In this document: positions 9 through 17,555 of the stretch, piece by piece | Position numbering within the stretch: the stretch's first letter is position 1 | Layout: every line of letters begins with the position of its first letter | Assembly (NCBI GenBank): GCA_030533005.1 | Contig: JAUNJX010000003.1 | Span: 1-64,000, forward strand | Length of the DNA stretch: 64,000 nt | Direction: 5' to 3' | Source of the DNA: Clostridia bacterium | GTDB lineage: Bacteria > Bacillota > Clostridia > Christensenellales > CAG-138 | Made by a program: the position numbers and the translations under genes | Notes under the pieces: model-generated | Database searches by the model: none | What the model was told of the DNA's origin: nothing | The model's input: only the letters and a program-made list of their open reading frames with translations

Positions 9-85
9 GGGGTTATAGCTCAGCTGGTCAGAGCGCTACGTTGACATCGTAGAGGTCGTTGGTTCGATCCCAACTAATCCCACCA
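9..85 (+). tRNA. tRNA-Val (anticodon GAC)
   Basis: A full cloverleaf is visible. The acceptor stem GGGGTTA (9-15) pairs with TAATCCC (75-81), followed by A and an encoded CCA (83-85). The anticodon stem CTACG/CGTAG (36-40/48-52) encloses the loop TTGACAT, whose anticodon is GAC, read as valine. The T arm carries GGTTCGATCC. The CCA end directly abuts the first base of the predicted 6S RNA, so the two are probably processed from one transcript. The promoter lies outside the window. Confidence 0.95.
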
Positions 86-260
86 AAATCCTGTGGTGTG
101 CGTTATCCCTCGGTTATAAACCCACAGTATAACGCCGGGAGCGTGTGTCAATAGGCCGATGTTGCTTTGATTTTATCTTAGTAAGCAAGAGCCGTTGCAG
201 CGCACCCACCTGCCTTTGAGGCGGGTGTTATGGCGAGGGACGGACGGCACTCTGGGATTT
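86..260 (+). ncRNA. ssrS: Probable 6S RNA, regulator of RNA polymerase
   Basis: This stretch folds like a 6S RNA. A long closing stem is formed by 86-99/247-260, 101-104/243-246 and 106-112/234-240. A central bubble follows, whose 3' side carries the small hairpin CACCTGCC/GGCGGGTG (207-214/220-227) seen in many 6S RNAs. The terminal arm uses 137-143/201-207, 149-156/191-197 and 162-167/183-188. The length of about 175 nt fits the family. 6S RNA mimics an open promoter, binds the housekeeping holoenzyme and templates short product RNAs. It starts one base after the tRNA-Val CCA and ends 17 nt before tRNA-Gln; I see no promoter of its own, so processing from a tRNA transcript is inferred. The identification rests on structure read by eye. 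Confidence 0.7.
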
Positions 261-277
261 CCTTTACAAAAGCGTGT

Positions 278-351
278 TGCGGAATTGTGTAATGGTAGCA
301 CCTACGACTCTGACTCGTATTGTCTAGGTTCGAATCCTAGTTCCGCAGCCA
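278..351 (+). tRNA. tRNA-Gln (anticodon CTG)
   Basis: Acceptor TGCGGAA (278-284) pairs with TTCCGCA (341-347), then G and an encoded CCA (349-351). The anticodon stem TACGA/TCGTA encloses CTCTGAC, giving anticodon CTG for glutamine. The 3' part from 313 onward is repeated at 1688-1732, so this tRNA is the integration target of the adjacent element, and its present 3' end was restored by the incoming DNA. The gene remains intact. Confidence 0.95.
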
Positions 352-357
352 AGAGAA
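313..357 (+). repeat. Left attachment site (45-bp direct repeat)
   Basis: The 3' half of tRNA-Gln from the anticodon arm through the CCA plus AAGAGAA is identical to 1688-1732. Such a repeat at a tRNA 3' end, flanking an integrase gene, is the usual signature of attL/attR created by tyrosine-recombinase integration. Confidence 0.9.
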
Positions 358-389
358 AATCCCCGAATCTTCTAAGGTTCGGGGATTTT
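356..389 (+). terminator. Intrinsic terminator after tRNA-Gln (element-borne)
   Basis: Inverted repeat AAAATCCCCGAA (356-367) / TTCGGGGATTTT (378-389) with a 10-nt loop and a T-rich 3' arm. It lies just inside the element, so it probably replaced the chromosomal terminator that now sits at 1731-1767. Confidence 0.8.
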
Positions 390-1687: not shown

Positions 1688-1732
1688 ACTCGTATTGTCT
1701 AGGTTCGAATCCTAGTTCCGCAGCCAAGAGAA
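1688..1732 (+). repeat. Right attachment site (displaced tRNA-Gln 3' end)
   Basis: Perfect copy of 313-357. This is the original chromosomal 3' end of tRNA-Gln, pushed away by the insertion. It lacks the acceptor 5' strand and D arm and so is not a functional tRNA. Confidence 0.9.
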
Positions 1733-1767
1733 CCAAAAGCGCCCTGCCAAGGGCGCTTTTTGGTTCT
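1731..1767 (+). terminator. Intrinsic terminator (original tRNA-Gln terminator)
   Basis: AACCAAAAGCGCCC (1731-1744) pairs with GGGCGCTTTTTGGTT (1751-1765) around a 6-nt loop, ending in T-rich sequence. It directly follows the displaced tRNA 3' end, indicating that it served the tRNA-Val/6S/tRNA-Gln transcript before integration. Confidence 0.85.
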
Positions 1768-15898: not shown

Positions 15899-17443
15899 TT
15901 ATTTTGCAAACTCCACCGCACGCATCTCTCGAATCACGTTGACCTTGATCTGTCCCGGATATTCAAGCTCAGACTCAATGCGCTTGACGATGTCGCGCGC
16001 CATGATGATGGTATCGGCATCGTTGACGTTTTCGGGCTTGACCATGATACGCACCTCGCGGCCCGCCTGGATTGCAAAGGATTTATCCACGCCCTCAAAG
16101 GAGTTGGCAATTTCTTCCAGCTTCTCCAAACGACGGATATAGTTTTCCAGCGTTTCTCGGCGCGCGCCGGGGCGCGCCGCCGAAATCGCGTCGGCTGCCT
16201 GCACAAGCACGGCTTCCATCGTCGTCGGCTCCACATCGCCATGATGCGCCATGATGGCGTTGATGACCTGATTGTTTTCTCTGTATTTTTTCGCCAAATC
16301 GGCGCCGATTTGGATATGCGGCCCTTCGACCTCATGATCCACAGCCTTACCGATATCGTGCAGCAAGCCCGCACGCTTGGCAAGCGCCACATTTGCGCCC
16401 AGCTCAGCAGCCATCATCCCCGCGATATGGGAAACCTCAATGGAATGCTTCAGCACGTTCTGGCCATAGCTCGTGCGATAGCGCATACGACCCAACAGCT
16501 TCACCAGCTCATGATGCAAGCCGTGAATACCGGTTTGGAAAATAGCCTGCTCGCCCGCTTCGCGTATCTGCGTATCGACCTCTTTGCGAGCCTTTTCCAC
16601 CATCTCCTCGATCCTGGCTGGATGAATGCGTCCATCCAGAATCAGCTTTTCCAACGCGATCCTGGCAATCTCGCGCCGTACCGGATCAAAACCGGAAAGT
16701 ATGACAGCTTCCGGCGTATCGTCGATGATCAGATCCACGCCCGTCGCCGTTTCCAGCGTGCGGATATTACGACCCTCGCGGCCGATAATGCGACCCTTCA
16801 TCTCATCGTTGGGAAGCGGCACTACAGAAACCGTGGTTTCCGCCACATGGTCGGCGGCGCACCGCTGCACGGCCAATGTGATGATGTTTCGCGCCTTTTT
16901 GTCGGCTTCTTCCTTGGTCTTTGCTTCGATGTCCCGCAGCATGACCGCTGCGTCATGCCTTGCTTCTCGCTCTACATTGCTGAGCAATATCTCTTTTGCC
17001 TCGTCCATCGACAACCCGGATATCGTCTCCAGCTCCTTAAGCTGCTTTGCATGCACTTCCTGTACGGAGGCTTCCATCGCTTCCGTTTCTTTTTGCCGCT
17101 GTATCAACGCTTCCTCACGCTGTTCGATGCTGTCCATCTTTTTATCCAGCGTTTCCTCGCGCTGCAACAGTCGCCTTTCGGTGCGTTGCTGCTCGTTCCG
17201 GCGATCACGAAGCTCTTTTTCGTTATCGCTCTTGATCCGATACGCTTCTTCCTTTGCTTCCAGAAGCGTTTCCTTCTTCAACGTCTCCGCGCGTTTTTGC
17301 GCGTCGTCAATCATCTTGCGAACCGCGTCCTCCGCCTTTGCTACCTTCGCTTCCGCGATATTCCGTCTGTAATAGTAGCCGGCACACGCGCCGATCGCCA
17401 ATGCCAAAACCCCCACGATCAGGGGAATGATAAAGTTACTCAC
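15899..17443 (-). CDS. rny: Ribonuclease Y
   Basis: 514-residue membrane-anchored endoribonuclease that initiates mRNA decay. One N-terminal transmembrane helix ([21 protein letters not shown]), a long coiled coil (about 30-190), a KH domain ([15 protein letters not shown]) and an HD domain with [10 protein letters not shown] and MAHHGDVEP. The GTG start at 17443 gives the usual length; GGAGGTG lies somewhat far upstream. A leader of about 105 nt containing a TTCATA/TATGAA hairpin precedes it. The YlbF/YmcA-type gene at 3295 encodes a likely modulator. Confidence 0.95.
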
Positions 17444-17555
17444 AGGTTCTCTAACACCTCCACCTATTATGTATAAATACCGTGTATGACAGTATGTATG
17501 GACAAACTTCATAAAAATATATGAAATTACACACCTACACAATCACTCGGATTTT

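Follow-up and report, generated by a model that had tools for sequence, protein, structure and literature searches.

A 6S RNA Gene Between tRNA-Val and tRNA-Gln, Probably Part of a Stable-RNA Operon, in an Order of Clostridia

6S RNA Genes in Described Systems

6S RNA is normally regarded as an independently regulated brake of stationary phase. In E. coli, its gene has its own promoters and, downstream, a protein gene rather than tRNAs, unlike the predicted operon described here. In plants, dicistronic tRNA-snoRNA genes place a second non-coding RNA under a tRNA promoter, and this RNA is released by tRNA 3′ processing. These genes differ from a 6S operon in that they are eukaryotic, are transcribed by RNA polymerase III, encode a guide RNA rather than a regulator of the polymerase, and have no tRNA behind the released RNA.

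In lactic acid bacteria, 6S has a promoter of its own and neighbors rarA/upsA-type genes (PMC8414754). The 6S RNA encoded by ssrS in E. coli is made as a longer precursor, the 5′ end of which is cut by RNase E (PMC4191395). The locus described below resembles ssrS insofar as its 6S is likewise proposed to come from a longer precursor through a general RNA-processing nuclease. No description of a tRNA-embedded 6S was found in the literature searched, which did not extend to Barrick 2005 and Wehner 2014, the main surveys of 6S, or to Kim and Lee 2004.

Identity of the 6S RNA and Its Neighbors

The window, by which we mean the whole stretch of 64,000 nucleotides analyzed, begins with the following features:

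9..85, plus strand: tRNA-Val(GAC) with encoded CCA, first gene of the predicted operon (ARAGORN, genome tRNA survey)
86..262, plus strand: 6S RNA (RF00013; Rfam and clade model match, predicted fold, covariation)
261..277, plus strand: 3′ trailer of 17 nt from the 6S closing stem to tRNA-Gln, without a terminator (sequence)
278..351, plus strand: tRNA-Gln(CTG) with encoded CCA, last gene of the predicted operon; RNase P is expected to cut at its 5′ end (ARAGORN)

The match to RF00013 covers 85-262 of the plus strand and the full length of the model (positions 1-187), at 46.8 bits (gathering score 46.4), with E = 3e-6 over the window and 5.6e-8 over the first 1.2 kb. A preliminary description of this DNA had proposed that a 6S-like fold fills the gap between the two tRNAs, from one base after the CCA of tRNA-Val to about 17 nt before tRNA-Gln, and had named the lack of a covariance hit as grounds for abandoning that view. 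The hit obtained is a real match above the cut-off, and the predicted closing stem, 86 to 260, begins 1 base past the CCA and stops 17 nt short of tRNA-Gln, in agreement with that description. A clade covariance model, built from an alignment of 26 diverse relatives, gave the locus 138.5 bits (E 2e-37), this sequence itself being in the training set, and it recovered 6S in 31/51 family members without any Rfam match. By Rfam and by the clade model alike, this is the sole 6S detected in the assembly.

The fold of the single sequence is modestly better than that of shuffles (z -2.3), and it is covariation that is decisive over the borderline Rfam score. Among the 26 relatives, compensatory changes on both sides were found in 26 of 43 pairs, over eight helices; paired cells made up 92.4%, vs. 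81.6% for shuffles and 40-49% after sliding one side; and the observed covariation values were reached by none of 500 shuffles. A rod with a closing stem, a central bubble, and an apical arm is thereby backed, and many positions of the alignment are invariant. The locus is thus confirmed as a genuine 6S RNA gene. It shares fold, length, and conserved bubble sequences with the canonical 6S of Firmicutes (RF00013; B. subtilis 6S-1, lactic acid bacteria) and is present here in one copy per genome; membership in this family is the basis for predicting that it acts as a brake on RNA polymerase.

In a tRNA survey of the assembly, which is 85% complete, tRNA-Val(GAC) and tRNA-Gln(CTG) were detected at this locus only. 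Genes for Val(CAC) and Gln(TTG) tRNAs are located elsewhere in the same assembly, outside the 6S locus.

Conservation of the Gene Order

In the window's family, tRNA-Val(GAC) is flush with the start of 6S in 66 of 67 loci. Seven other families of the order (f5, f7, f15, f17, f21, f25, f31) contribute another 13 such Val-led loci, giving 79 in total from eight families. tRNA-Gln(CTG) lies within about 60 nt downstream of 6S in 73 of the 79, some of the remaining six being truncated by contig ends, and in f15 and f25 tRNA-Glu(CTC) is downstream as well. Loci were sampled by score and family, not randomly, and these counts are not independent events because loci within a family are related. The one exception in the window's family (L004) has lost tRNA-Val and kept the promoter, which now faces 6S across a leader of about 55 nt. 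Another locus (L028) was counted as Val-led even though, in the 3′ part of its tRNA-Val, about 11-12 nt of the acceptor/T-stem region are duplicated in tandem; the adjoining 6S is intact. Shortened 6S versions of about 156-160 nt, almost spacer-free between tRNA-Val and tRNA-Gln, occur at L364-L369, L371, and L372 (g23) and at L361 and L362 (g5).

None of 68 loci sampled at the class level has tRNA-Val flush with 6S, a different tRNA (Leu) being flush in one, and 50 loci from other parts of the phylum had no tRNA called near 6S. As far as sampled, the layout is therefore a feature of the window's order. The best match to the window's MutS is in a Christensenellaceae MAG, at 69%, so that this order is probably Christensenellales or one close to it. 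Elsewhere in the class and phylum, 6S stands alone, mostly with its own promoter and often with its own terminator, and hardly any of the loci checked there has a flush tRNA. Among named relatives, no 6S near mutS was found in stretches L032-L039.

Promoters and Terminators

The contig begins at base 1 of the window, 8 bases upstream of tRNA-Val, so that the promoter of the window's own copy is out of view, and the absence of a 6S promoter was therefore tested in relatives. A built-in promoter scan of 1-1800 found none; it is blind to an operon promoter, since the contig starts at 1. For the relatives, a promoter was defined by a -10 box with at least 5/6 matches including TAnnnT, a -35 box with TTG or 4/6 matches, and a spacer of 15-19. 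A first, stricter rule missed -35 boxes of the TTGCAT type and was hence relaxed for the final counts; Val-led loci yielded zero 6S promoters under both. At the 6S itself, inside tRNA-Val, or in the spacer, a promoter was found in 0 of 79 Val-led loci, vs. 76 of 77 testable loci with a promoter just upstream of tRNA-Val. The promoter directly upstream of 6S that marks a stand-alone 6S gene was present in 58/71 (order) and 53/67 (class) of the control loci, which have no flush upstream tRNA; shuffle means for the control promoters were about 0.11 and 0.17, respectively. The predicted start nucleotide is often G at tRNA-led promoters vs. often A at those of free 6S genes, a difference that would be suggestive of growth-rate control but is too weak to use.

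Terminators are placed correspondingly, in counts that are raw and without a shuffle control. No intrinsic terminator was found between 6S and a close tRNA-Gln in any of 52 loci; past the last tRNA, 45 of 51 loci have one. In loci that lack a tRNA downstream of 6S, the 6S gene itself is followed by a terminator in 37/55 cases for the order and 38/66 for the class. The closing stem of 6S reaches to within a few bases of tRNA-Gln in several genera, which leaves no room for a terminator. In the relatives the locus thus has the layout of a tRNA operon: a promoter before the first tRNA, none within, no internal terminator, and a terminator at the end. The preliminary description had read the locus as a tRNA-6S-tRNA unit whose 6S has no promoter of its own and had suggested that relatives be compared; the tRNA-Val-6S(-Gln) order kept in 79 loci of eight families, and the promoter counts just given, bear this out, and every part of the reading that sequence can test (match, synteny, promoters, terminators) turned out as predicted.

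The end of the window's own locus has been altered by an insertion:

313..357, plus strand: left copy of an exact 45-bp direct repeat, the 3′ half of tRNA-Gln, attachment-site-like
359..386, plus strand: terminator-like hairpin with a short T tract, directly past tRNA-Gln, within the inserted element (terminator scan, L001)
1688..1732, plus strand: right copy of the 45-bp repeat
1735..1760, plus strand: second hairpin with a T tract, past the right repeat; the plus strand reads ...GGGCGCTTTTTGG, and the scan lists the hairpin on the minus strand

The repeats enclose about 1.4 kb, in which the only clear gene is that of a tyrosine integrase (437-1558, Pfam PF00589), and tRNA-Gln was left intact. 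The hairpin at 1735-1760 probably served as the operon's terminator before the insertion displaced it, and the element supplies a new one behind the 6S operon.

Proposed Production of the 6S RNA and Alternative Explanations

From the conserved order and from where promoters and terminators lie in relatives, we infer a single transcript of tRNA-Val, 6S, and tRNA-Gln. Very probably, then, 6S belongs to a stable-RNA operon (promoter, tRNA-Val(GAC), 6S, tRNA-Gln(CTG), terminator), is co-transcribed with the tRNAs, and is released by tRNA processing. RNA polymerase would start just upstream of tRNA-Val and transcribe all three genes to the terminator past tRNA-Gln. Maturation of tRNA-Gln requires an RNase P cut at its 5′ end (277/278); the same cut would free the 3′ side of 6S, and trimming to the stem would come next. 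The 5′ end of 6S would be generated when tRNA-Val is processed behind its encoded CCA. The enzymes for these steps are assumed on the basis of tRNA processing in general, and the one acting downstream of a CCA-encoding tRNA-Val is uncertain; RNase Y, encoded in the window at 15899-17542, is one candidate. Once released, the RNA would act as 6S does elsewhere, mimicking an open promoter, binding the housekeeping RNA polymerase, and being freed when pRNA is synthesized. The tRNA promoter, together with tRNA processing, would determine how much 6S is supplied, and this amount should probably track tRNA production.

The regulatory consequence of this operon could equally well hold or fail, in our estimate. 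If it holds, Val-led lineages have a 6S without separate transcriptional control, its 3′ end set by RNase P and its 5′ end by tRNA 3′ processing; this RNA, the principal RNA-based brake on the cell's RNA polymerase, would be made in fixed proportion to tRNA, and new synthesis would drop once the tRNA promoters were turned off, contrary to the stationary-phase promoter logic of model species. The strongest competing view accepts the same operon anatomy and differs on regulation only: 6S would be co-transcribed, but its abundance would be governed by regulated processing or stability, and its level would not follow tRNA synthesis. Such post-transcriptional control is plausible because RNase E cuts the 5′ end of 6S in E. 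coli (PMC4191395), but no sequence feature at the locus speaks in its favor, and we consider it rather unlikely.

A further possibility concerns transcription itself. A weak cryptic promoter within tRNA-Val, giving independent transcription of 6S, is conceivable because the anticodon arm of tRNA-Val(GAC) holds TTGACA, a perfect -35 box, 16 nt before TTCGAT or TTCGAG in the T-loop region, which could serve as a -10 box. Under a weighted promoter score this pair outscored shuffled sequence, and a promoter-like signal appeared inside tRNA-Val, in about half of the Val-led loci; that score was dropped for the rule requiring a good -10 box because the signal came from the anticodon-arm TTGACA. Both hexamers are, however, obligatory for the function of tRNA-Val(GAC). 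The would-be -10 box lacks the key A, and in many loci, which read TTCGAG, the final T is missing too; none of the 79 Val-led loci combines a -10 box of at least 5/6 with a usable -35 box, and loci without a flush tRNA mostly show a proper promoter at 6S. We judge the pairing of TTGACA with a poor TTCGAT/G to be an accident of tRNA sequence and a cryptic promoter to be improbable.

That the 6S-like stretch is a decayed or inert spacer between tRNAs is scarcely credible: the Rfam score is just 0.4 bits above the cut-off and some genera carry a short version of about 156 nt, but compensatory change is strong over several families, many positions are invariant, and no other 6S was found in the genome. 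That the three genes adjoin by chance, or through misassembly at the contig edge 8 bases before tRNA-Val, is refuted by the same order in dozens of independent assemblies.

Other Layouts and a Possible Course of Evolution

The window's order contains intermediate layouts, so that a stepwise change can be traced. In six loci of the order (f12, f22, f23, f33) and two other members of the class (f36, f73), 6S is followed by a separate promoter and then by Gln, mostly Gln-Glu. At L125, L126, L145, L162, L163, L183, L273, and L279, tRNA-Gln(CTG), mostly with tRNA-Glu(CTC), lies 60-200 nt past 6S and has its own promoter. Where tRNA-Val is missing and the 6S-Gln gap is wide, a Gln promoter stands in the gap in 8/8 loci (six in the order, two outside); the gap is also long in two Val-led loci, neither of which has a promoter there. 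In one family (f2), tRNA-Val is 76 nt upstream of 6S, which keeps its own promoter. In another (f31), some genera have a promoter, 6S, and Gln with no terminator between the two genes, and others have the full Val-6S-Gln order; in the window's family all three genes are fused. The layout with separate promoters is possibly an older form that preceded the fused operon, and the events may have run from separate to fused layouts.

A member of the same class outside the order (L292) carries a 6S (601-789) that begins 8 nt after tRNA-Leu(GAG). A promoter of the form TTGACT-17-TATAAT lies upstream of tRNA-Leu, none was seen by eye at 6S, and a terminator-like hairpin lies past 6S. As in the Val-led loci, a tRNA precedes 6S, but the tRNA is a different one, no tRNA is downstream, and the genome carries a second, free-standing 6S (L263). 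This single case looks like an independent origin.

Implications

If 6S does lie within a tRNA transcript throughout the lineage, its brake on transcription would be tied to the translation machinery, and RNase P would be directly involved in making a global regulator of transcription. The Val-led lineages would then offer a natural test of whether 6S needs transcriptional control of its own.
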